The notes under the pieces are model-generated. The model worked only from the letters and a program-made list of their open reading frames with translations, did no database searches and was not told where the DNA came from. Of a stretch of DNA of 16,043 nt, positions 211 to 16,043 are shown in pieces. Position 1 is the first letter of the stretch. Each line of letters opens with the position of its first letter. Source of the stretch: Oscillospiraceae bacterium (lineage in GTDB: Bacteria; Bacillota_A; Clostridia; Oscillospirales; Oscillospiraceae); contig JAFQHF010000033.1 in the NCBI GenBank assembly GCA_017398105.1, forward strand, positions 1-16,043, given 5' to 3'. The translations under genes and the position numbers were made by a program.

Positions 211-234
211 GTAGGGGAGGGTCTTGACCCTCCC
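211..234 (+). repeat. GTAG-headed REP-like hairpin, copy 1
   Basis: GTAG at 211-214 is followed at once by a perfect 9-bp stem (215-223 with 226-234) around a TT centre. It belongs to a family of hairpins in this window that all have GTAG directly at the foot of a stem beginning GGGAGG, GGGCGG or a close variant. Confidence 0.7.
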
Positions 235-283
235 TAAAACCAGAACAATTGCGTGCTAAAAACAGATAGAATATTGACAAAAT

Positions 284-1903
284 TTATTGTGCGTCTTGCT
301 TCCGGGCGTACCAGAGCTGCTTGCTGCGGTACATGTCTTCGTCTGCCAGACGGAACAGTTCCGCGCGGGAAATACCGGGATGCTCTGCAGACAGGGCTGC
401 ACCCAGAGCGAAATGGACAGGCAGCTCCGGGGTTTCTGCGTTGTATTTTTCTCCGGCGCGGAGCAGATTCCGGATCTGTTCATCCAGCTGGGCGCGGCCG
501 ATACCGGGAATGGCCGCGGCAAATTCATCGCCGCCCCAGCGGCAGATCACACTGCTGCGGGGCAGGGTGCTGCGTAAAATGGCGGAGAGCGCATAGATCA
601 TCCGGTCTCCGGCATCATGGCCCAGTGTGTCGTTGACCTGCTTCAGTCCGTTCAGATCGATGACCAGAATGGCGTAAGGCTCCGGCAGAGGGATATCACT
701 GTGCATCAGCTCATTCCACCGGGCACGGTTTTCCAGTCCGGTGCGGCTGTCGATGTAAGCCTTCCGGGTGGATTCCTGGACATTTTTGAGAAATACGATC
801 AATGTATAAACAATAAAGCTCAGGATCGCAAAGCTCAGAAGGCCGTTGTCGTTATTTTTGTAATAGAGCAGCAGATCCACGCCGATGCCCGCAAACAGAA
901 GGATCAGCAGCCGCCAGGAAGGGAGAACACCCCATTTTTTATCCCTGATCCAATTCACCAGGGCTGTCAGGGGAATCGAAAAAATGGCTGCGACCAGAAG
1001 AATATGACTGAAGCTCAGATTTTGCCGGATCTCAGCAAGGCCGAAGATCTGCAGGAAAAGAACGGCCAGACAGACAAGGGAAGCGCCGCAGGAAAGCAGC
1101 AGAATCAGTCCGTCCTTCTGCTTCTCAAAAAGGGTGCTGAAATACATCAGAAGGCATACGCTGCACAAAAACAGCGCGCCGACACTGATGTATCCGATTG
1201 CCATGGACGCTTCCGGCAGCAGCAGTGATGCGGATTTCAGATCCGTAATTTTCCACAAGCCCAGGGAGATGGAAAACAGGCTCAGATAAGCCAGTCCGCT
1301 GTTTCCTGTCTTCAGGATGAACCGGAAATACGCGGATACGCCTGCCATAAACAAACCCACGAGAATGCTCAGTGCGCAAAGCACCAGCAGCGGCAGCTCG
1401 CCGGTGAGAATGTCCAGAATCATGGCATCCTGGGCGCCAAACAAAAATTCCGGAGTCTTGCCCAGGGCGGCATCAAACATGGGGGTCAGAACCACAGTAA
1501 CGGTCTGACCGGCCCGTTCCGGCCCTGCATAAACGGAGCACCAGTTGCTGCTGACATTCCTGCCGATGCGGTTATCCTCCGCTCCGGTGAGGCTGTAGAC
1601 CAGCGCATCGTCAAAGTAGACCTGGATTTCGTGGTGGGAAATAGTAAACAGAAGGCTGCTTCCTGTTATTTCCTCCGGCTCCAATACCCATCGGTAAACC
1701 TTCCGCAGGCCGATGGGGGCAGTGCCGTCGGAAACCAGTTCCGTCTGCACACCGGTGACGACCTCATATCCCCGGGGCGTATCAGCCCGGTAGACGGTCG
1801 TGCGTTCTGCGGCGCCCATATAAAGGAAGAAAGCAAAAAAGGCTGCCAGAGTCACGGAAAACAGCACGACAGCAATATTTTTGGTTCGGTTTTGGCTTTT
1901 CAT
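284..1903 (-). CDS. Membrane-anchored diguanylate cyclase (GGDEF)
   Basis: Predicted to make cyclic di-GMP from two GTP at the inner face of the membrane. From the ATG at 1903 (539 aa), residues 8-30 form a membrane segment after a Lys/Arg-rich start. Residues 31-160 look extracytoplasmic. About 165-375 hold several membrane segments resembling a 7TM sensor, and about 380-535 form the GGDEF domain. It shows DSRTGLENR, DLNGLKQVND with LGHDAGD, and an intact GGDEF at 457-461. The RxxD inhibitory site before GGDEF is missing (P and S at the expected R and D positions). No EAL domain is present. An in-frame TTG at 1939 would add 12 residues; I prefer the ATG because it gives a normal signal-anchor start, though neither start has a strong ribosome binding site. 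The sensed signal is unknown. It is divergent from the phosphopantetheinyl transferase gene. Confidence 0.88.
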   Translation of the reverse strand: MKSQNRTKNIAVVLFSVTLAAFFAFFLYMGAAERTTVYRADTPRGYEVVTGVQTELVSDGTAPIGLRKVYRWVLEPEEITGSSLLFTISHHEIQVYFDDALVYSLTGAEDNRIGRNVSSNWCSVYAGPERAGQTVTVVLTPMFDAALGKTPEFLFGAQDAMILDILTGELPLLVLCALSILVGLFMAGVSAYFRFILKTGNSGLAYLSLFSISLGLWKITDLKSASLLLPEASMAIGYISVGALFLCSVCLLMYFSTLFEKQKDGLILLLSCGASLVCLAVLFLQIFGLAEIRQNLSFSHILLVAAIFSIPLTALVNWIRDKKWGVLPSWRLLILLFAGIGVDLLLYYKNNDNGLLSFAILSFIVYTLIVFLKNVQESTRKAYIDSRTGLENRARWNELMHSDIPLPEPYAILVIDLNGLKQVNDTLGHDAGDRMIYALSAILRSTLPRSSVICRWGGDEFAAAIPGIGRAQLDEQIRNLLRAGEKYNAETPELPVHFALGAALSAEHPGISRAELFRLADEDMYRSKQLWYARKQDAQ

Positions 1904-1918
1904 AAGCAAATGGGCAAT

Positions 1919-1984
1919 CGAAAAACGCCCCTTTTGCAATTGGGAAGAACAGTTCCGCCCAAATCATAAAGAAAGCGTTTTCGC
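1919..1984 (-). promoter_or_regulatory. Possible leader hairpin of diguanylate cyclase mRNA
   Basis: In the untranslated leader, 1975-1983 can pair with 1919-1928 (about 9 bp with a bulge). Inside, 1940-1944 pairs with 1958-1962. The fold would bury the alternative TTG start at 1939. No cyclic di-GMP riboswitch consensus was recognised. It may be a simple structured leader or chance. Confidence 0.25.
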
Positions 1985-2044
1985 AGACCGCCAGATCCTT
2001 GTAAAGTATATGATCCCAATCGTGAGAACGTTGTCGTTAAGGGT

Positions 2045-2073
2045 ATTATATCTTCCGTGGGGGAAATTTTCAA
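2045..2073 (-). promoter_or_regulatory. Sigma-70-type promoter for diguanylate cyclase
   Basis: Read on the minus strand: TTGAAA (2073-2068), a 17-nt spacer, and a perfect TATAAT (2050-2045). Transcription would start near 2038, leaving a leader of about 135 nt before the ATG at 1903. Confidence 0.65.
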
Positions 2074-2103
2074 CCTTCCCGCAAATATTTTTCCGGCGAA
2101 GCA

Positions 2104-2132
2104 TTGACACTTGGAAAAAAGAATGATATATG
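2104..2132 (+). promoter_or_regulatory. Promoter for phosphopantetheinyl transferase
   Basis: Consensus TTGACA (2104-2109), a 17-nt spacer and TATATG (2127-2132). Transcription would start near 2139, about 40 nt before the ATG at 2178. Confidence 0.6.
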
Positions 2133-2177
2133 TGTCAGATGTGATTCATGCAGAAGACGTATTCTTGAGGAGGCCGT

Positions 2178-2783
2178 ATGATCCATATACTGTGTGCAGA
2201 TATCTGCGCTGCGGACAAAGACTGCTATCGCCGTCTCTATGAAGGGGCTTCCCCGGAGCGGAAAAAACGGGCGGACCGCTACCTGCGGCAGGAAGACAGG
2301 CTGCGCTGTGTGACAGCACATGCCCTGCTGAAACGGGTGCTGGGTTCGGCGGAATTCCGGGTCGGACAGAAGGGAAACGGAAAGCCGTATATCATAGACA
2401 GGGAAGATTTTCACTACAACCTTTCCCATTCCGGCCGCTATGTGGTGATCGCCTGGGGCGGGGCCGAGGTGGGTGTGGATGTACAGCAGCAGAATGCTGC
2501 CGTCAATATGGAAGCCATTGCCGGACGGTTTTTTACCGCCGATGAGCAGGCCTATATCGGCACAGACCTTCTGCGCTTTTATGAAATCTGGACAAAAAAG
2601 GAAAGCTATCTGAAATATACCGGCAAGGGACTGCAGACGGATCTGCGCTCCTTCAGCACCCTGATACCGGATCCCAAAATCCGATACCATCACCGGCATC
2701 TGGAGGGCGGATACAGCCTGTGCCTGTGTACGACGGACGGCGATGACACCTTTGAACTGCTGGATGTGCGGCAGCTCACATAA
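2178..2783 (+). CDS. 4'-phosphopantetheinyl transferase, Sfp type
   Basis: Moves the phosphopantetheine arm of coenzyme A onto a serine of acyl- or peptidyl-carrier proteins. The 201-aa product carries the family landmarks: GKPY (68-71), FHYNLSHSG (78-86), GVDVQ (99-103) and the WTKKESYLKYTGKGL block (138-152). In Sfp, metal is held by the D and E of GIDIE plus the E of WxxKE. Here D101 and E142 are kept but the middle ligand is Q103. GAGGAGG (2167-2173) sits 4 nt before the ATG, and a consensus promoter lies upstream. The gene stands alone between its promoter and terminator, with no polyketide or peptide synthetase gene in view, so its carrier protein cannot be named. The length is slightly short for Sfp (about 220 aa) but complete. 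Confidence 0.9.
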   Translation: MIHILCADICAADKDCYRRLYEGASPERKKRADRYLRQEDRLRCVTAHALLKRVLGSAEFRVGQKGNGKPYIIDREDFHYNLSHSGRYVVIAWGGAEVGVDVQQQNAAVNMEAIAGRFFTADEQAYIGTDLLRFYEIWTKKESYLKYTGKGLQTDLRSFSTLIPDPKIRYHHRHLEGGYSLCLCTTDGDDTFELLDVRQLT

Positions 2784-2800
2784 AAAATACCGCTTACAGC

Positions 2801-2836
2801 AAACCGGAGCAGGATCAAACCTGCTCCGGTTTTTTG
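2801..2836 (+). terminator. Rho-independent terminator
   Basis: A perfect 13-bp stem (2801-2813 with 2820-2832) around a 6-nt loop, running into a T stretch at 2830-2835. It begins 18 nt after the phosphopantetheinyl transferase stop codon. Confidence 0.9.
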
Positions 2837-2900
2837 CGGTTACTTTGTGATGTGCTTGCCGGGTTGACTCAGCGATGTATCAATTTACAGAGTCCGTTGC

Positions 2901-2926
2901 AGAGGAGGGGCAGGACCCTCCTCTAC
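2901..2926 (-). repeat. GTAG-headed REP-like hairpin, copy 2
   Basis: On the minus strand GTAG (2926-2923) is followed by a stem pairing 2916-2922 with 2903-2909 around a 6-nt loop. The next two base pairs outward also match if the TAG-side bases are included. It lies just past the 3' end of the minus-strand phosphate transporter gene and has no T run, so it is a repeat rather than an obvious terminator. Confidence 0.65.
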
Positions 2927-2954
2927 GTTTATCTGCTAAATTGTATGGGGTCGA

Positions 2955-4727
2955 TCAGGGTTCTTCCGGGAAGACGTACTGGGCCTTGTACCGGGCGAAG
3001 CGTTCGGCGTAGGCGGCGCTTTCGCTCAGCTCACCGGCCTTCAGGGCGTTCAGATATTCGTGGGCTTCCAGCTTGCCCTCGGCTACCTGCAGGATTTCCA
3101 CGGCCACGTTGGAGCAGTGGTCGGCGGTGCGCTCGAAGGCGGTCAGCAGATCGTCCAGAACGAAGCCGTATTCCACACTGCATTCACCGTCCCGCAGGCG
3201 GCGGATATGCCGGGACTTGACTTCACGGACCAGGGTGTCGATGACCTGCTCCTGGGGCTCCACCTTCAGGGCCAGCTCCCGGTCAAAGCTCCGGTAGGCG
3301 GCGTTGGTGCGCTCCAGCACATCCTGCACGGCCCGGCTCAGGATCTCCAGCTCGGCCCTGGCCTGGGCGGAGAAGCTGATTTCCTTGTCATGCATTTCCT
3401 GGGCGGCCTTGCCGATGGATACCGCGTGGTCGGCGATCCGTTCGATATCGGCCACGGTATACAGCAGGGTGTTCAGGATGCGGTTGTCGGAAACGGACAG
3501 ATTCATGCCGGAAAGCTGCACCAGGTAGGTGCCCAGGGCGTCCTGATAGCGGTCGGTCTTATCCTCGATGGCGCGAACCTGCTCCAGAAGCTTTGCATCA
3601 TAGTTCCGGGTCAGACCCATGGCCATGGTCACTGCCCGGGCGGAATCGGCAGCCATTTCGGCGGCGATTTCCTGAGAGCGCTGGATCGCCACGGCTGGGG
3701 TGGCCAGCAGACGCTCGTCCAGCAGGGCCTGCTCCTGAGGTGTCTGTTCACTGGGGATCACCAGGTAGGCCAGCTTCACCAGCAGGCCGTTCAGGGGCAT
3801 CAGCACCAGGGTGGCGGCCACGTTGAAGCAGGTATGGATCACTGCGATATGCCAGGCGGAGGCGGTATCATTCAGGAATTTCCAGTCAATGAACAAGCCC
3901 AGACCGTAGAAGATGATCACAAACAGGGCAACGCCCACCACATTGAACAGCAGATGCACCACGGCGGTGCGGCGTGCGTTCCGGTTGGCGCCGATGGAGC
4001 CCATCATGGCGGTGACGGTGGTGCCGATGTTCTGGCCCAGAATCACGGGAATGGCGCTGCCGAAGGTCACCACGCCGGTGCCGCACAGGCCCTGCAGGAT
4101 ACCCACGGAGGCGGAGGAGGACTGGATGACGCCCGTCAGCACGGCACCGAAGAGGATGCCGATCAGGGGGTTGGAGAAGGAGATCATCAGCCTGGCGAAC
4201 CAGGGCTCGTTTTCCAGGAATTCCATGGAGGAGCTCATCAGATCCATACCGGTCATCAGCGCCATGAAGCCCAGCAGAATGGTGCCGATGCTCTTCTTCT
4301 TTTCACTCTTGGTGAACATATACAGCACAATGCCGATGGTGCCCAGGACGGGGGACAGGGTGGAGGGCTTGAACAGCTGAACCAGGAAGCTGTCGCCTTC
4401 CAGTCCGCTTAAGGAAAGAATCCAGGCGGTGACGGTGGTGCCGATGTTGGCACCCATGATGACACCAACGGCCTGCTTCAATGTCATAATGCCAGAGTTG
4501 ACGAAGCCGACGACCATGACCGTTGTTGCGGAGGAGGACTGGATCACGGCCGTAACCGCCAGACCCAGCAGGAAGCCCCTGAACACCGTGGAGCTCATTT
4601 TTGCCAGAATGGTCTGCAGTTTGCCGCCTGCGGTGCGTTCCAGGGCTTTGCCCATCACGTCCATGCCGAACAGGAACAGCGCAAGGCCGCCCAGCAGGGA
4701 AACAACTTTCAGAATATACATTGTCAT
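2955..4727 (-). CDS. Na+/phosphate cotransporter with PhoU-like tail
   Basis: Sodium-coupled phosphate transporter of the NptA/YjbB type (Na_Pi_cotrans family). The 590-aa protein has two inverted halves, each with the hallmark QSSS motif: QSSSATT (63-69) and QSSSASV (202-208). Each is followed by a matching GANIGTT (92-98) or GQNIGTT (231-237). Hydrophobic segments fill residues 1-325. The rest (about 345-580) is a charged helical PhoU-like region, thought in this family to regulate transport or link it to phosphate signalling. AAGGAG lies about 11 nt before the ATG, and a perfect TATAAT is about 50 nt upstream. Three TTTACA-like hexamers at an exact 11-bp period lie further upstream. The family includes both importers and exporters, so direction is not settled. 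Confidence 0.92.
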   Translation of the reverse strand: MTMYILKVVSLLGGLALFLFGMDVMGKALERTAGGKLQTILAKMSSTVFRGFLLGLAVTAVIQSSSATTVMVVGFVNSGIMTLKQAVGVIMGANIGTTVTAWILSLSGLEGDSFLVQLFKPSTLSPVLGTIGIVLYMFTKSEKKKSIGTILLGFMALMTGMDLMSSSMEFLENEPWFARLMISFSNPLIGILFGAVLTGVIQSSSASVGILQGLCGTGVVTFGSAIPVILGQNIGTTVTAMMGSIGANRNARRTAVVHLLFNVVGVALFVIIFYGLGLFIDWKFLNDTASAWHIAVIHTCFNVAATLVLMPLNGLLVKLAYLVIPSEQTPQEQALLDERLLATPAVAIQRSQEIAAEMAADSARAVTMAMGLTRNYDAKLLEQVRAIEDKTDRYQDALGTYLVQLSGMNLSVSDNRILNTLLYTVADIERIADHAVSIGKAAQEMHDKEISFSAQARAELEILSRAVQDVLERTNAAYRSFDRELALKVEPQEQVIDTLVREVKSRHIRRLRDGECSVEYGFVLDDLLTAFERTADHCSNVAVEILQVAEGKLEAHEYLNALKAGELSESAAYAERFARYKAQYVFPEEP

Positions 4728-4774
4728 AAAAACGCGTTCTCCTTTTTTCTATTTTGCGCAGATTGACAAGGTAT

Positions 4775-4803
4775 ATTATAGAAATATTCCATCGGAGAAG
4801 CCA
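4775..4803 (-). promoter_or_regulatory. Promoter for Na+/phosphate cotransporter
   Basis: On the minus strand a perfect TATAAT (4780-4775) lies 47 nt before the start codon. The hexamer 17 nt upstream (TGGCTT, 4803-4798) is a poor -35, which is typical of promoters needing an activator. Confidence 0.5.
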
Positions 4804-4812
4804 CCGGGCATG

Positions 4813-4840
4813 TGAAAAACTCTCGTAAAATCTTTGTAAA
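4813..4840 (-). promoter_or_regulatory. Pho-box-like direct repeats
   Basis: On the minus strand TTTACA, TTTACG and TTTTCA start at 4840, 4829 and 4818, an exact 11-bp period with 5-nt gaps. They sit about 10 nt upstream of the weak -35 of the phosphate transporter promoter. Gram-positive PhoP and other OmpR-family regulators bind TTAACA-like hexamers with this period. Binding by PhoP here is inferred from the pattern and the target gene. Confidence 0.5.
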
Positions 4841-4917
4841 ATCCTGGCTCAGAAACGGTAAAGACCGGAAAATGACAGTGATTTGTTGGGTATATATTGC
4901 AGTGAAGCGGTTCCCGG

Positions 4918-4954
4918 AAAAAAACGGCAGGGCGGAGGAAAACCTCCGCCCTGC
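4918..4954 (-). terminator. Rho-independent terminator of plsY
   Basis: A perfect 12-bp GC-rich stem (4943-4954 with 4927-4938) with a 4-nt loop, followed on the minus strand by seven T (4924-4918). It begins 16 nt past the plsY stop codon. Confidence 0.9.
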
Positions 4955-4970
4955 AATAGGATTATTCGGT

Positions 4971-5588
4971 TCAGGACTTATCCCCGAAGACCTTGCTCAT
5001 GAATTCGTTGGTGTGCACCAGGTCGTTTTTGCTGAGGGTGCGCTTCAGGTTCGACCAGTGCATGGCGAATACCAGGGCGCAGGCGGCCAGCACCGCCAGA
5101 AGATCCATCCAGTCTCCGCTCTGGAACCAGACCAGCACCGGGAACAGAAAGCAGCCCACCATGGGGGCGATGACGCCGGTGTTGGTGATGAACATACCGG
5201 CAATGCCCAGGGCGATGATCACAAAGAACATCCAGGGCTTGTAGGCCAGGATCAGACCGCCGAAGGTCGCCAGTCCCTTGCCGCCCTGAAAACGCATAAA
5301 CACCGGGAAGCAGTGACCCAGAATGGCGCCGATGCTGGCAAGGATTCCCGCGATCCGCAGGGAAGGGAACAGCAGCTTTGCCAGCTTGAAGGACAGGAAG
5401 GACTTGAAAATATCAAAAATCAGAACAAAAATGCCCGCGGCCTTGCCCAGCACCAGAGCGGTATTGGTGGCGCCCAGATTTTTTGTGCCCTCCTGGGTCA
5501 GATCCACGTGCTTCTTTTTGGAGAGCCAGGAGGAGGGGCTGATGCAGCCGATAAAATAGCCCATGCCGAGGCTGAGAATTGCGTTCAT
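4971..5588 (-). CDS. plsY: Glycerol-3-phosphate acyltransferase PlsY
   Basis: Membrane enzyme that moves an acyl group from acyl-phosphate to glycerol-3-phosphate, giving lysophosphatidic acid, the first step of phospholipid synthesis. The 205-aa protein has the family length and its three cytoplasmic-loop motifs: ISPSSWLSK near residues 16-24, GTKNLGATN (34-42), and GHCFPVF with QGGKGLAT (91-108). Hydrophobic segments alternate throughout. The first motif reads SPSSW where many PlsY proteins have SIPFG or SIPSG, a mild divergence. GAAAGG lies about 10 nt before the ATG. A TTGCAA-17-TATAAT promoter and a strong terminator bracket it as a single-gene unit, divergent from the siroheme reductase gene. 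Confidence 0.92.
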   Translation of the reverse strand: MNAILSLGMGYFIGCISPSSWLSKKKHVDLTQEGTKNLGATNTALVLGKAAGIFVLIFDIFKSFLSFKLAKLLFPSLRIAGILASIGAILGHCFPVFMRFQGGKGLATFGGLILAYKPWMFFVIIALGIAGMFITNTGVIAPMVGCFLFPVLVWFQSGDWMDLLAVLAACALVFAMHWSNLKRTLSKNDLVHTNEFMSKVFGDKS

Positions 5589-5623
5589 AGAGAGTCTGCC
5601 TTTCCAGTTTTTGTATTGCTGCT

Positions 5624-5652
5624 ATTATACCCGTTTTTTTCGTATATTGCAA
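5624..5652 (-). promoter_or_regulatory. plsY promoter
   Basis: On the minus strand: TTGCAA (5652-5647), a 17-nt spacer, and a perfect TATAAT (5629-5624), 35 nt before the plsY ATG. The -35 is embedded in GGTTGCAA, shared with the divergent promoter at 5731. Confidence 0.75.
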
Positions 5653-5730
5653 CCCTGATTCCAAAAGAATGGACGATGGAGATCTTGCTGCCCGGCATCG
5701 GTTTTCGCAGAAAAAATGGCGGTATTTTGG

Positions 5731-5759
5731 TTGCAACCGGCTTCCCAGTATGCTATAAT
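5731..5759 (+). promoter_or_regulatory. Promoter of siroheme reductase gene
   Basis: TTGCAA (5731-5736), a 17-nt spacer, and a perfect TATAAT (5754-5759), 36 nt before the ATG. The -35 lies in the perfect 10-bp palindrome GGTTGCAACC (5729-5738). Confidence 0.75.
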
Positions 5760-5795
5760 AATGAAACAAATATGAAAAAGGAGCGCGATTTTACC

Positions 5796-6677
5796 ATGAG
5801 CAAGCTTTCTGCTGACGATATCAAGCGTGTCAAGGGCCTGGGCTGCCTCCAGGACAAGCGTTACGAGGATGTGTTCAATGTCCGCGTCATCACCCGCAAC
5901 GGCCGCATCACCACCGATGAGGTGCGCACCATTGCCGAGGCTGCGGATACCTACGGCTCCGGCAAGATTGCCATGACCTCCCGCCTGACCATTGAAATTC
6001 AGGGTGTCAAGTATGACAACATCGAGCCCATGATCGCCTTCCTCCGGGAAAAGGGCCTGGACTGCGGCGGCACCGGGGCCAAGGTTCGCCCTGTGGTCTC
6101 CTGCAAGGGCACTACCTGCCAGTACGGCCTTATTGACACCTTCTCCCTCAGCGAGAAGATCCATGAGAAGTTCTACATCGGCTATCACGGCGTAGCGCTG
6201 CCCCACAAGTTCAAGATCGCCGTGGGCGGCTGCCCCAACAACTGCGTCAAGCCCGAACTGAACGACCTGAGCGTCATCGGCCAGCGGTATCCTGCCGTGG
6301 ATCTTGACAAGTGCAAGGGCTGCAAGAAGTGCCAGGTGGAGGCAAGCTGCCCCATCAAGATTGCAAAAGTGGTGGACGGCAAGGTGGTCATCGACCCCGC
6401 TCTGTGCAACCACTGCGGCCGGTGCAGGGACAAGTGCCTGTTCGATGCCATCTCCTACACTGACGGCTACAAGGTCTCCATCGGCGGCCGCTGGGGCAAG
6501 AAGACTGCCACCGCCCAGCCTCTGAACTATGTCTTCACCACTGAGGATGAGGTTCTGGACATGGTGGAGAAGGTCATCTGCTTCTTCCGGGATGAGGGTA
6601 TCGCCGGTGAACGCTTTGCCGATACCATCAGCCGCCTGGGCTTCGATTATGTGGAAGCCAAGCTTCTGAACAAGTAA
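5796..6677 (+). CDS. Siroheme/[4Fe-4S] nitrite-sulfite reductase, AsrC-like
   Basis: Small redox enzyme of the nitrite/sulfite reductase superfamily, probably cytoplasmic, resembling the anaerobic sulfite reductase catalytic subunit AsrC. The 293-aa protein has an N-terminal ferredoxin-like half (about 20-90, with TSRLTIE at 61-67). The siroheme-cluster cysteines are C103/C108 and C146/C150 (GGCPNNC). A two-cluster ferredoxin insert has C173, C176, C179, C185 and C204, C207, C210, C214. The first pair is C-X4-C, whereas AsrC has C-X5-C. The frame is open back to 4812, but the ATG at 5796 is chosen because it follows AAGGAG (5778-5783), lies just after the promoter, and starts the conserved domain. 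No AsrA or AsrB partner gene is adjacent, so the electron donor and true substrate are unknown. Codon use is strongly biased, suggesting high expression. Confidence 0.85.
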   Translation: MSKLSADDIKRVKGLGCLQDKRYEDVFNVRVITRNGRITTDEVRTIAEAADTYGSGKIAMTSRLTIEIQGVKYDNIEPMIAFLREKGLDCGGTGAKVRPVVSCKGTTCQYGLIDTFSLSEKIHEKFYIGYHGVALPHKFKIAVGGCPNNCVKPELNDLSVIGQRYPAVDLDKCKGCKKCQVEASCPIKIAKVVDGKVVIDPALCNHCGRCRDKCLFDAISYTDGYKVSIGGRWGKKTATAQPLNYVFTTEDEVLDMVEKVICFFRDEGIAGERFADTISRLGFDYVEAKLLNK

Positions 6678-6722
6678 ACAACAGTCTGCCATACCGCCGA
6701 AGCGGTTCAACGGCCTTAAAAC

Positions 6723-6764
6723 GACTCCCCCTCTGAAAGACACAGAGGGGGAGTCTGTCTTTTT
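6723..6764 (+). terminator. Rho-independent terminator
   Basis: A perfect 13-bp stem (6723-6735 with 6743-6755), a 7-nt loop and a T-rich tail (6758-6764). It lies 45 nt after the siroheme reductase stop codon. Confidence 0.9.
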
Positions 6765-6770
6765 ACACGC

Positions 6771-6971
6771 TGTAGGGCGGGGTCATATGAATTATTGAAT
6801 GATTGCCCCCGGCAATCATCCGTATTACTGATTCGCTGCGCGGAGCACCACCCCGCCGACCCGCTATCGGTAAATGGCATGTGTGGTTTTAGCGTATTCG
6901 TTACATTCTGCACCGCTTTTCACCCGGGCAGTTCTGCAGCCTGATCGGCGGGGTCATGACCCCGCCCTACA
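6771..6971. repeat. MITE/BIME-like element with GTAG-headed ends
   Basis: A 201-bp non-coding stretch bounded by perfect 16-bp inverted repeats: TGTAGGGCGGGGTCAT at 6771-6786 and its reverse complement at 6956-6971. Both ends carry GTAG pointing inward from the outer edge, as in REP-like hairpins. The right end is itself a complete 20-bp palindrome (6947-6966). The left arm could instead pair with CCCCGCC at 6851-6857. Inside, 6799-6807 pairs with 6811-6819 (9 bp, 3-nt loop). It fills the gap upstream of the importer operon. No cobalamin-riboswitch consensus and no convincing promoter was found inside it. Confidence 0.6.
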
Positions 6972-7000
6972 ATATATTCCGCTGCAATGAGGTACTTCCT

Positions 7001-7921
7001 ATGAAAATCAAACTTTTTTCCTTATTTTTAATCCTGCTCCTGCTGGCGGGCTGTGCTTCGGCTGCCCCGCAGGAGGCGGGTTATACCTTCACCGATGATC
7101 TGGGCCGCACCGTTGCGGTACAGGAGCCGAAGCGGGTGGCCTGTCTGCTGGGCAGCTTTGCCCAGGTCTGGCAGCTTGCCGGCGGCCGGGTGATCGCCAC
7201 TGCGGACGATGCCTGGGATGACCTTGCCCTGGAATTATCCGAAGATACGGTGAACCTGGGCAACACCAAGAATCTGAGCCTGGAGCTGCTGCTGTCGGCG
7301 GAACCGGACTTTATTCTGGCCAGCGCCAACACCCGGCAGAATCTGGAATGGCTGGAAACCCTGGAAGCCACCGGCATTCCCACCGCCTATTTTGACATTT
7401 CGGATTTTGAAGACTACCTGCGCCTGCTGGCGCTGTGCACGGACATCACAGGCCGCAAGGATCTGTATGCGCGCCACGGCACCCAGGTTCAGCAGCAGAT
7501 CGATGCTGTCCTGGAGCAGGCAGACAAACGGGGCACCGCCCCCACGGTGCTGTGTATGCGGGCCTCGGCCTCCATGGTGACGGTGAAAAACAGCGAGGAT
7601 AACGTGCTGGGGGAGATGCTTCACAGTCTCGGCTGTGTGAACATTGCCGATTCCGACACCTCTCTGCTGGAAAACCTGAGCCTGGAAGCCATTCTGGAAG
7701 CAGACCCGGATTTTATCTTCATCGTCCAGCGGGGAGATGACGAGGCGGGTATGCGGGCGTTCGTTGCGGCTATGATGCAGGAGAATCCCGCCTGGCAGCG
7801 CCTGAGCGCCGTGGAGGAGGGAAGGCTCTTCTTTATGGACAAGAACCTGTACAACCTGAAGCCCAACCACCGCTGGGGTGAGGCTTACGAAACATTAGAG
7901 GAAATTCTGGAAAATGGGTAA
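7001..7921 (+). CDS. ABC importer substrate-binding lipoprotein (iron/heme/cobalamin type)
   Basis: Captures a metal chelate outside the cell and hands it to the FecCD permease encoded downstream. The 306-aa protein starts with a lipoprotein signal ending in LLLLAGC, with lipidated Cys at residue 18. It continues as a class III periplasmic-binding fold: DDLGRTVAV (32-40) and EPKRVACL at the start of lobe 1, EPDFILAS mid-protein, then ADPDFIFIV in lobe 2, as in BtuF/FhuD relatives. The frame is open from 6956, but the ATG at 7001 is chosen: GAGG (6989-6992) precedes it, and the earlier stretch overlaps the repeat. The ligand cannot be told from sequence. It is first in an operon with permease and ATPase. 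Confidence 0.88.
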   Translation: MKIKLFSLFLILLLLAGCASAAPQEAGYTFTDDLGRTVAVQEPKRVACLLGSFAQVWQLAGGRVIATADDAWDDLALELSEDTVNLGNTKNLSLELLLSAEPDFILASANTRQNLEWLETLEATGIPTAYFDISDFEDYLRLLALCTDITGRKDLYARHGTQVQQQIDAVLEQADKRGTAPTVLCMRASASMVTVKNSEDNVLGEMLHSLGCVNIADSDTSLLENLSLEAILEADPDFIFIVQRGDDEAGMRAFVAAMMQENPAWQRLSAVEEGRLFFMDKNLYNLKPNHRWGEAYETLEEILENG

Positions 7922-7944
7922 AAAGAGAACAACATCGAAAGAAT

Positions 7945-8062
7945 CTGTCATTGCGAACCAGTCCGCAGACTGGTGTGGTGACCGAAGGGAATGCCTGTGG
8001 TGCAATCCCCTTCGGTTTCGGGAGATTCCCACGCCGGTGTGCGCACCGGCTCGGAATGACAG
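7945..8062. repeat. 118-bp palindromic repeat inside importer operon
   Basis: Near-perfect terminal inverted repeats (CTGTCATTGCG at 7945-7955; reverse complement of CTGTCATTCCG at 8052-8062). Internal hairpins follow: ACCAGT with ACTGGT near 7958-7973, CCGAAGGG with CCCCTTCGG across the middle, and GCCGGTG with CACCGGC near 8033-8050. The shape is a branched cruciform or cloverleaf. From general knowledge, repeats starting TCATTGCGA are dispersed in many bacterial genomes; only one copy is here. It separates the lipoprotein gene from the permease gene. Confidence 0.65.
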
Positions 8063-8087
8063 CGTTGGTGGGAACAAGGGAAAAATT

Positions 8088-9017
8088 ATGCTTGCATGTT
8101 TGACAGCCCTGCTGGCGGCTCTGCTGAGCCTGTGCCTGGGCGCGGCCTCCCTGACGGGGGCCATGGGCAGCTTTATCTTCCGGTATGTCCGTCTGCCGCG
8201 GACGCTGGGCTGTCTGCTGGCCGGGGCGGCTCTGGGCACGGCCGGAGCGGTGATCCAGGGGGTACTGCACAACAGGCTGGCCTCTCCCAGCATCATCGGT
8301 GTCAACGCCGGGGCAGGTCTGGCGGTGACGGTGTGCTGCGCTGCGGGGGCGGTCTCCGGCTGGGCCATTGCCGGGTCGGCCTTTCTGGGGGCGCTGGCAG
8401 CCGTGCTGCTGATCGTCTTCGCGGCGGAGAAGGCGGGCGCTTCCCGCACCACCGTGATCCTGGGCGGTGTGGCGGTGAACGCGGTTCTCAATGCCCTGTC
8501 CGAGGCCGTCACGGTGCTGATCCCGGAAGCGGGTCTCATGAGCGGCGATTTCCGGGTGGGAGGCTTTTCCTCCGTGAGCTATGTGCGGCTGATCCCGGCG
8601 GGGGTGCTGATCCTGGTGAGTCTGACGGCTGTCTTTCTGCTGAGTAACGAGCTGGATGTTTTGTCCCTGGGTGAAGAAACGGCCCAGTCCCTTGGCCTGA
8701 ATGTGAAGCGCATGCGCACCCTGCTTCTGGTGCTGTCAGCCATGCTGGCGGGCAGCGCCGTCAGCTTCGGAGGGCTGCTGGGCTTCGTGGGGCTGATGAT
8801 CCCCCATGCCATGCGGAAATTTGCAGGCGGCGAGAGCCGGTATCTGCTACCCATGTGCGCCTTCGGCGGCGGGGCCTTTGTGACACTGTGCGATACGGCG
8901 GCCAGGGTGGTTTTTGCGCCCTTCGAGCTGCCGGTGGGTATTTTGCTGAACGTGCTGGGCGGGCCCTGCTTTCTCCTGCTCCTGCTGAAGCAGAAGGGAG
9001 GCAGGCTCCATGCTTGA
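8088..9017 (+). CDS. FecCD/BtuC-family ABC importer permease
   Basis: Membrane channel of the importer, pairing with the lipoprotein before it and the ATPase after it. The 309-aa protein is hydrophobic throughout and shows family motifs RLPRTLGCLLAGAALG (35-50), GAVIQGVLHNRLASPSIIGVNAG (about 53-75) and, near residues 226-245, LLGFVGLMIPHAMRKFAGG, the region that contacts the ATPase. The loop after the first membrane segment is shorter than usual. The frame is open from an ATG at 7914 that overlaps the lipoprotein stop. That would put 58 residues, mostly translated repeat, before the first membrane helix. I prefer the ATG at 8088, which has AAGGG 7 nt upstream and starts right at the helix. 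The stop overlaps the ATPase start by 8 nt, indicating coupled translation. Confidence 0.9.
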   Translation: MLACLTALLAALLSLCLGAASLTGAMGSFIFRYVRLPRTLGCLLAGAALGTAGAVIQGVLHNRLASPSIIGVNAGAGLAVTVCCAAGAVSGWAIAGSAFLGALAAVLLIVFAAEKAGASRTTVILGGVAVNAVLNALSEAVTVLIPEAGLMSGDFRVGGFSSVSYVRLIPAGVLILVSLTAVFLLSNELDVLSLGEETAQSLGLNVKRMRTLLLVLSAMLAGSAVSFGGLLGFVGLMIPHAMRKFAGGESRYLLPMCAFGGGAFVTLCDTAARVVFAPFELPVGILLNVLGGPCFLLLLLKQKGGRLHA

Positions 9018-9762
9018 GATCCGGAATCTGACGGCAGGCTATCCCGGCAATCCGGTGCTCCGGGGTATTGACCTGGACATTCCGGAGGGTGCCGTCACCG
9101 TTATCGCAGGCCCCAACGGCTGCGGAAAATCCACATTGCTGAAGGCTCTGGCGGGCATCCTGCCTGCCCGGGGCGCCGTGACACTGGAGGGTCAGCCCCT
9201 TCTGACTCCGGAGCCCCGGCTGCTGGCCCGGAAGATCGCCTATCTGCCCCAGAACCGCCCTGTGCCGGAGATCACCGTCAGGCGGCTGGTGCTTCACGGC
9301 CGGTTCCCGTACTTAAGCTATCCACGCAGATACCGTCCGGAGGATGCGGCAATTGCCGAAGCCGCCATGGCCCGGATGGGGATCTCCGACCTGGCGGACC
9401 GGCCCCTGACCAGCCTTTCCGGCGGCCAGCGGCAGAAGGTCTACATCGCCATGGCCCTGGCCCAGGATACCCCGGTGGTGCTGCTGGATGAACCCAATGC
9501 CTTTCTGGACATTTCCCACCAGCTGCAGCTGATGGCTCTGGCGAAGGGGCTGGCATCGGAGGGGAAAACCCTGGTGACGGTGCTCCATGACCTGACCCTG
9601 GCTCTGGAAAACGCGGATTCTCTGGCGGTGCTCTCGGAAGGCCGGGTGCTGCAGCAGGGAAGCCCGGAGGAAATTTTCGCCTCCGGCTGCCTGACGGAGG
9701 CCTTCGGCGTAACGGTGGACCGCATCCGGACACCCGGAGGGTGGAAATATTATTATGGTTAA
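9010..9762 (+). CDS. FecE/BtuD-family ABC importer ATPase
   Basis: Cytoplasmic ATPase powering uptake with the FecCD permease. The 250-aa protein has Walker A GPNGCGKST (34-42), Q-loop LPQNRP (79-84), signature LSGGQRQKV (136-144), Walker B VVLLDEP (156-162), D-loop FLD (165-167) and switch histidine H193 in VLHDLTLAL, typical of the iron-siderophore/heme/cobalamin group. The ATG overlaps the permease stop by 8 nt and has GGGAGG (8996-9001) 8 nt upstream inside the permease gene. The frame is complete and no catalytic residue is missing. It is the last gene of the importer operon. A GTAG-headed hairpin with a following T run lies 5 nt after the stop and may terminate the transcript. Confidence 0.93.
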   Translation: MLEIRNLTAGYPGNPVLRGIDLDIPEGAVTVIAGPNGCGKSTLLKALAGILPARGAVTLEGQPLLTPEPRLLARKIAYLPQNRPVPEITVRRLVLHGRFPYLSYPRRYRPEDAAIAEAAMARMGISDLADRPLTSLSGGQRQKVYIAMALAQDTPVVLLDEPNAFLDISHQLQLMALAKGLASEGKTLVTVLHDLTLALENADSLAVLSEGRVLQQGSPEEIFASGCLTEAFGVTVDRIRTPGGWKYYYG

Positions 9763-9766
9763 CCAA

Positions 9767-9799
9767 GTAGGGGAGGGATTTATCCCTCCCTCATTTTTT
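9767..9799 (+). repeat. GTAG-headed REP-like hairpin, copy 4, possible terminator
   Basis: GTAG (9767-9770) then a perfect 9-bp stem (9771-9779 with 9782-9790) around TT. A run of six T (9794-9799) follows, so this copy may double as the terminator of the importer operon. Its stem begins GGGAGG. Confidence 0.7.
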
Positions 9800-9849
9800 C
9801 GTCTTTCCCCGCTGCCAGAATTTCAGCTCGGTGGAGACCGGTACATTCA

Positions 9850-9873
9850 GGGCGGAATGAATTCCGCCCCTAC
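9850..9873 (-). repeat. GTAG-headed REP-like hairpin, copy 5
   Basis: On the minus strand GTAG (9873-9870) is followed by a perfect 9-bp stem (9861-9869 with 9850-9858) around a 2-nt centre. The stem begins GGGCGG, the other subtype, and the orientation is opposite to copy 4. Confidence 0.7.
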
Positions 9874-9889
9874 AAAGCGAGCCCATCCC

Positions 9890-9914
9890 GTAGGGGAGGA
9901 TTTTAAATCCTCCC
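9890..9914 (+). repeat. GTAG-headed REP-like hairpin, copy 6
   Basis: GTAG (9890-9893) then a perfect 10-bp stem (9894-9903 with 9905-9914) around a single T. The stem begins GGGAGG, the same subtype and orientation as copy 4. Confidence 0.7.
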
Positions 9915-9967
9915 TCCTGATTTCGTCCAACGGCGTGCCCGGAGCAGATGCAGCCGCGCAGCCCTGA

Positions 9968-9992
9968 GGGCGGATTGGAAATCCGCCCCTAC
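9968..9992 (-). repeat. GTAG-headed REP-like hairpin, copy 7
   Basis: On the minus strand GTAG (9992-9989) is followed by a perfect 8-bp stem (9981-9988 with 9968-9975) around a 5-nt loop. The stem begins GGGCGG, the same subtype and orientation as copy 5. With copies 4-6 it fills most of the 349-bp gap between the importer and export operons. Confidence 0.7.
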
Positions 9993-15900: not shown

Positions 15901-15962
15901 GAGCTTGTCGAAAAACCCCTTCGGGCTTTTCCGCCAGTTTTTTTGCAGTCTGCTGCGCGCAT

Positions 15963-15989
15963 AATTTGTTCGCCTATGGCGAACAAATT
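15963..15989. repeat. Perfect 12-bp hairpin in 3' non-coding repeat region
   Basis: Positions 15963-15974 pair perfectly with 15978-15989 around TAT. It lies in a non-coding stretch after the export operon that also holds a C/G hairpin with T runs near 15915-15945 and ends at a further inverted repeat. No gene is seen between 15865 and the window end. Confidence 0.55.
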
Positions 15990-16012
15990 CCACACTTGCA
16001 GCCTGAGAAGTA

Positions 16013-16043
16013 TTTTCTGCCAGGTACACGCCCCGGCAGAAAA
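16013..16043. repeat. Inverted repeat at window edge
   Basis: TTTTCTGCC (16013-16021) pairs perfectly with GGCAGAAAA (16035-16043) around a 13-nt loop. The window stops at its last base, so it may be part of a longer dispersed repeat or a terminator for a gene beyond the edge. Confidence 0.45.

Follow-up and report, generated by a model that had tools for sequence, protein, structure and literature searches.

Here we describe a family of hairpins with a GTAG foot in a 16,043-base stretch of DNA from an Oscillospiraceae bacterium (contig JAFQHF010000033.1 of assembly GCA_017398105.1, hereafter the window), together with its counterparts in related Clostridia, whose genomes and loci are designated below by G and L numbers, respectively. 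We consider it very probable that these hairpins are repetitive extragenic palindromes (REPs) of the GTAG type, mostly assembled into REPINs (inverted REP pairs), i.e. non-autonomous elements multiplied, now or formerly, by a REP-associated tyrosine transposase (RAYT, or TnpA-REP), a Y1-HUH enzyme that acts on single-stranded DNA. The window hairpins carry the GTAG (or GTRG) at the stem foot by which GTAG-type REPs are recognized, and inverted pairs with GTAG outermost, three of them in the window, recur as units in its relatives. To these observations we add here co-varying stems, RAYT loci in relatives, matching between stem type and RAYT, as well as a pyrimidine signature next to GTAG.

When hairpins are defined by a perfect stem of at least 8 bp and a loop of at most 8 bases, the window contains 18, seven of them with GTAG at the foot (215-234, 2901-2924, 6947-6966, 9771-9790, 9850-9869, 9894-9914 and 9968-9988). 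In 300 dinucleotide shuffles of the window, GTAG-footed hairpins average 0.03 and never exceed 1 (average 2.5 and at most 9 for hairpins of all kinds), confirming the GTAG-footed family proposed in a preliminary description of this DNA. That these are chance hairpins in GC-rich spacers draws on the G+C-rich stems and nothing else, and has a practically negligible probability given the shuffles and the identical 24-mers that recur up to 33 times per genome and are never found read backwards. The same association is seen at individual sites, in a comparison not selected on stems: a stem of at least 8 bp begins at 6 of the 10 GTAG|GG sites of the window versus 26 of 2,899 other NNNN|GG sites. A search with the window's Na/Pi protein yields 74 loci, in Oscillospiraceae, 'Faecousia' and more remotely related Clostridia; the best full-length match is 83% identical, and the window's own species is therefore probably not among them. 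In a sample of 50 of these loci (689 kb), such stems begin at 26 of 170 GTAG|GG sites versus 219 of 104,030 others, and 27 of the 29 REPs found there lie outside open reading frames (ORFs) of at least 150 aa. A census of stem feet in the same loci that makes no assumption about GTAG (197 hairpins with a stem of at least 9 and a loop of at most 6) counts GTAG 15 times against 0.9 expected, so that the enrichment at stem feet on which the preliminary description had staked its reading is borne out, 16-fold, in relatives. Only AAAA (17) is a commoner foot, which we read as that of terminators.

Altogether, the window holds eight repeats, six of which form three inverted pairs. The first REPIN (6772-6970, no strand assigned) has GTAG at both outer ends and an interrupted left REP, with its 5' half at 6772-6786 on the plus strand and its 3' half from about 6849, followed by a right REP at 6947-6970 on the minus strand, whose 24-mer is present in 5 of 15 related genomes. 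The interruption is an insert of about 62 bp at the loop of the left REP (6787-6848, no strand assigned, junctions uncertain by a few bases), without which the REPIN measures 137 bp; a GTAG repeat is indeed found at 6772 as first described, but what was taken there for a half copy is a whole REP split at its loop. The other two REPINs, at 9767-9873 (107 bp; REPs 9767-9790 on the plus and 9850-9873 on the minus strand) and 9890-9992 (103 bp; REPs 9890-9914 on the plus and 9968-9992 on the minus strand), have no strand assigned as units and each join REPs with unlike stems. Of the two solitary REPs, the one at 211-234 on the plus strand consists of GTAG and a 9-bp stem with a 2-base loop and shares, together with its tail, 31-32 identical bases with REPIN ends of G003. 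The second, at 2902-2926 on the minus strand, is imperfect: its GTAG overlaps the longest perfect stem (2901-2924), and in an alternative fold it abuts a stem of nine pairs with one mismatch. This corrects the earlier statement that GTAG directly abuts every stem. All hairpins with a GTAG foot are intergenic, in a window that is 86.5% coding by a hand-picked gene list. As a separate observation, 52-55 bases of the 6787-6848 insert recur with 85% identity at L093:2770-2823, outside a REP, and the insert is possibly a small mobile or dispersed repeat with hairpin loops as targets.

Stem sequences change in a manner that preserves pairing. In 22 equal-length REPs from the window and its relatives, seven of nine stem pairs change on both sides, bearing out the earlier claim that stem interiors vary yet stay complementary, and the covariation score of the stem is 0.734, whereas shuffling gives 0.181 on average and sliding no more than 0.153; all 22 were picked for having a stem, which makes their 100% pairing a matter of construction, but not the double changes. 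Only two pairs, those at the stem bottom, never vary; the third is G-C or C-G in 16 of the 22. At the level of REP pairs, stretches of G002, G003 and G015 chosen from the top-scoring matches listed contain 34 in inverted orientation, 29 of them 133-140 bp long. We considered this range as a general REPIN length and rejected it: it fits G002 and G003 but neither the window pairs of 107 and 103 bp nor the pairs in other loci (48-110 bp), and is instead a feature of some subfamilies. One G002 subfamily (L165-L176 and L179-L182; 16 copies) has hairpins in the spacer as well, with eight pairs doubly changed. Comparison of eight representative REPIN spacers shows nothing shared except one weak match between two G003 copies, and for this reason we claim no common spacer function. 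The window has a REP in the spacer 3' of the Na/Pi gene, as do 4 of 46 loci (L013, L015, L037 and L038), with different stems, and at L015:10093-10182 a REPIN is found inside the 3' end of an 839-aa ORF.

An intergenic position, often downstream of genes, together with a T-run after hairpin 9771-9790, would also suit intrinsic terminators or mRNA-stabilizing hairpins that are kept for host function and do not move. However, among 102 dispersed REPs the stem is followed by G in 67 and by T in 25, and T-runs do not emerge as a pattern, and the window has separate terminator-like hairpins, for example at 2801-2832 and 6723-6755. Terminator function also leaves unexplained the fixed GTAG on one side only, the inverted pairs and the matching gene described below, and we regard such a host role as very unlikely.

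No Y1-HUH gene lies within the window, and Pfam Y1_Tnp matches are found in 11 of the 15 related genomes. Hairpins of the GTAG[GA]G type are present at 11 of 13 divergent Y1 loci (all except L080 and L090; 9 of 13 in a stricter hairpin scan) versus none of seven IS200-like loci (Pfam Y1_Tnp above 80 bits), so that the Y1-HUH genes with like hairpins that the preliminary description had envisaged do exist in related genomes. On NF047646, the REP-transposase model of NCBIfam, six of the divergent proteins have scores of 74.7-82.8 bits (cut-off 80, exceeded by the L084 protein alone), and on the IS200 model (cut-off 55) four of the six reach 19.4-27.9 bits and two are unlisted. A profile of five proteins has a single match in the PDB, the E. 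coli TnpA-REP structure 4ER8 (E = 1.5e-9), and the RAYT motifs HUH, W-Q and Y...NP are present in the five proteins checked, although that of L081 has YIDANV. The AlphaFold model of the L117 protein (pLDDT, the predicted local confidence score, 86.4; 22 sequences) has ISDra2 and 4ER8 as its top Foldseek matches (4ER8 at rank 2, root-mean-square deviation 3.3). Taken together, the hairpin-bearing Y1-HUH loci, the REP-transposase scores and the 4ER8 match support, in relatives, the suggestion of an equivalent REP/RAYT family in a Gram-positive anaerobe.

IS200/IS605 elements such as IS608 and ISDra2 likewise combine a Y1-HUH fold with single-strand hairpin ends, and this common fold and catalysis, as well as the IS200-type genes in the related genomes (seven loci above 80 bits), could be taken to mean that the hairpins are ends or relics (miniature inverted-repeat transposable elements, MITEs) of ordinary IS200/IS605, moved by the IS200-type transposases of the same genomes. 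The REP partners, in contrast, fall far under the IS200 model cut-off and carry the GTAG REPs that the IS200-like loci here are without, and G013 has two IS200-type matches and no REPs, G001 one and 6 REPs; we regard this origin as extremely unlikely.

The RAYT genes are found between dnaN and recF in two genomes (L083 and L088) and between prfA and tsaB in two others (L081 and L084; NCBIfam), and with these shared positions the gene looks like a resident, vertically kept rather than a roaming one. Across the family sample, GTAG hairpins occur in the gene or within 500 bases of it at 28 of 30 RAYT loci (L095 being the same gene as L083). REPtrons, i.e. Y1-HUH genes bordered by REPs of the dispersed type, are found in the relatives only. 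The 3' coding end of the RAYT gene in L093 consists of a double-foot REP (L093:1790-1817).

Genomes rich in REPs also tend to have a RAYT. Within 150 genomes of G002's GTDB family, 44 have a RAYT match, and at least 10 REPs are counted in 23 of these 44 versus 5 of the 106 RAYT-negative genomes (p = 1e-10), and at least 20 in 16 versus 4 (p = 6e-7); 23 of the 28 REP-rich genomes (at least 10 REPs) are RAYT-positive. These counts score at most 52 candidates per genome (at most 150 for the set of 15 genomes), with a REP model derived for the most part from the window's clade, and other stem lengths are therefore under-counted. In the set of 15, REPs are present in 11 genomes (6 to at least 147 copies) and absent in four: REP numbers range from 28 to at least 147 in the eight genomes that have divergent Y1 genes, and the remaining seven have 6 (G001), 20 (G005), 43 (G010) and none (G006, G011, G012 and G013). 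Many copies per genome, mostly intergenic, are found in relatives, as expected of REPs. At class level, a match at E <= 0.001 is found in 43 of 391 genomes.

Furthermore, stem type and RAYT match in the three stem types tested, counted by exact pattern in the 15 genomes (other types, for example that of L091 in G002, are outside this count). The type flanking the G003 RAYT has 33 copies in G003, 3 in G015 and none in the other 13 genomes, and that flanking a G004 RAYT, with four free positions, has 30 in G004, 2 in G015 and none in 13. The type at one side of the G007 RAYT, whose other side differs from it by one change, has 25 copies in G007, 14 in G002, 11 in G004, 9 in G015, 3 in G005 and none in 10, and the RAYTs of G002 and G004 carry one-pair variants of it.

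The bases outside the hairpin provide a further signature. Two pyrimidines (YY) directly precede GTAG in 75 of 93 distinct dispersed-REP contexts versus 131 of 451 hairpin-free GTAG[GA]G sites (p = 3.5e-20), and over bases -8 to -4 copies agree at 1.34 of 5 positions, near chance. YY|GTAG looks like a signature of cutting and joining. E. coli TnpA-REP cleaves at CT 5' or 3' of the REP (PMC8266576), and with YY before GTAG a cut directly before GTAG is therefore the natural reading. In the mechanism that we propose from published TnpA-REP biochemistry, an exposed DNA strand would fold into the hairpin, RAYT would bind GTAG plus stem on single-stranded DNA and cut just outside GTAG, and the freed element could then be joined into another pyrimidine site, with the stem sequence possibly serving as a tag by which each RAYT stays paired with the REPs that belong to it. 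Cutting and joining of their own single-stranded REPs by these RAYTs is putative, the YY|GTAG context being an indirect pointer.

Several observations weigh against multiplication by RAYTs. Nearly half of the RAYT-positive genomes of the family (21 of 44) have fewer than 10 REPs, some of the counted REPs sit inside RAYT genes, and a 400-kb sample of G113, with six RAYT matches, has no GTAG[GA]G hairpins where dispersed REPs would be expected. Five genomes are REP-rich with no RAYT match (G021, G045, G061, G149 and G160), as is G010 with its 43 REPs and no Y1 match, while the 20 REPs of G005 are accompanied by an IS200-like match only; the former six may be incomplete assemblies, may have lost their RAYTs or may use a different helper. 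The G007 stem type also borders the G015 RAYT at one side, and many copies of it occur in G002 and G004; YY precedes GTAG in only five of the eight window REPs. We found no base-exact empty site; the spacer 3' of the Na/Pi gene has diverged too far to provide one. The window's own RAYT is not seen, and we predict that its genome has or had RAYTs for its REPs, at least one L093-like (stem of copy 211) and one L084-like (stem of 6947-6970); movement of the REPs is likewise deduced, none having been observed.

A second arrangement places REPs inside the transposase gene itself. We show here that 18 RAYT genes contain two in-frame REPs, a sense copy at codon 31-46 and an antisense copy at codon 86-106, which bracket the HUH pattern in 16 of 18 (the pattern is unmatched in L114 and L119, and in L116 it is the Y pattern that is unmatched). 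The two copies are matched: 15 of 18 genes have the same 8-base arm in both, versus an identical arm in 6 of 306 cross-gene comparisons, and none of 20,000 permutations is as close, in a comparison that left out L099, at a contig edge, and genes with a single REP. In the L117 model, residues 41-50 and 91-110, approximately, are predicted with the least confidence in the core (block means 70-74), roughly at the inserts. In a RAYT tree of 33 rows (without L095, L099 and L122; three long branches, two of them meeting), one supported group (99/97) unites nine genes of the flank type, including those from the closest relatives of the window, with REPs outside the gene only and all eight of its counted genomes REP-rich (46 to at least 147). 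Two further flank-type rows lie elsewhere and the internal types are mixed over the rest; genes with two internal REPs do not form one clade in this tree (7 changes versus a shuffled mean of 11.3). In-frame REPs are known for RAYT subclass 2.4, generally between HuH and Y (PMC6006769), and the two-sided, stem-matched pair is an addition to these. A possible, if rather doubtful, interpretation is that, within this family of bacteria, the RAYT gene carries its own substrate tag, enzyme and recognition sequence travelling and diverging as a unit, and that the internal copies are kept alike by copying or by RAYT action.

Among described systems, those of the window and its relatives probably stand near subclass 2.4 (Quentin et al. 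2018, PMC6006769; group 4 of Bertels). That subclass is characterized by NH[IFV]H, WQ and YIxNNP motifs, three G-C pairs at the stem bottom, double-foot REPs and in-gene REPs, to which correspond here the NHxH, WQ and YIxxNP-type motifs in proteins of about 160-190 aa, GTAG REPs whose long, perfect stems have G-C pairs at the bottom, some double-foot REPs (L093, L015 and L036) and in-gene REPs that preserve the frame. The differences are that the third stem pair varies here, as does the residue before NP, which is mostly not N, that stem-matched REPs stand on both sides of HUH rather than generally between HuH and Y, and that the hosts are gut Clostridia, not named for 2.4 in the available text of that paper. 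In comparison to E. coli TnpA-REP (4ER8, subclass 2.2), the motif residues W, Q, H and R in the region contacting GTAG are kept and E100 is replaced by D, whereas the stems are perfect, lack the bulge of E. coli REPs and change fast in sequence. The GTAG REPs of Di Nocera et al. 2013 (PMC3733652) share a GTAG tag on one of their ends, 6-13 bp stems in which alternative residues remain complementary, the pairing and the mostly intergenic position; they come, however, from Proteobacteria, Cyanobacteria, Chloroflexi and the PVC (Planctomycetes-Verrucomicrobia-Chlamydiae) group, and neither 'Firmicutes' nor 'Clostridi' occurs in the available text of that paper or of PMC2817692. Clostridia are named in the available text of PMC6006769 only for the IS200-type subclass 1.1 (the other mention is a reference title). 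As subclass 2.4 is said there to be scattered over a number of phyla, earlier database matches in Firmicutes are possible, and within that limit our literature search, over the texts available, found no report of GTAG REP/RAYT systems from Clostridia. Such systems, described in these sources mainly from Proteobacteria, Cyanobacteria, Bacteroidetes and a few other phyla, are seen here in many gut Clostridia that are known chiefly through metagenomes. The fast-changing perfect stems of these systems and their in-frame matched REP pairs offer a natural series for tests of transposase-hairpin co-evolution, a question opened biochemically for only three RAYT/REP pairs (PMC8266576).

The genes surrounding the REPs in the window are ordinary. 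By Pfam scan, nine window proteins include a GGDEF protein, a phosphopantetheinyl transferase, the Na/Pi cotransporter and a glycerol-3-phosphate acyltransferase, and others have sulfite/nitrite reductase domains, belong to the HlyD type, or make up an uptake system of the FecCD type with binding protein, permease and ATPase. An Rfam scan of the window gave no matches. Other repeats are present in addition to the REPs. A second kind of dispersed repeat is found at 7945-8065 (GTCATTGCGA with an inverted copy at the far end), parts of which resemble L009 (two places) and L011 at 84-94%, and which we take to recall repeats of the CATTGCGA/CGTC type. Another, with two hairpins, lies at 41-118, and parts of it resemble L036 (two places) and L085 at 79-90%. 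Finally, the contig may terminate in a repeated element, as suggested within 15901-16043 by an inverted repeat at 15963-15989 and by the final 72 bases, which match the beginning of L005 at 92%.

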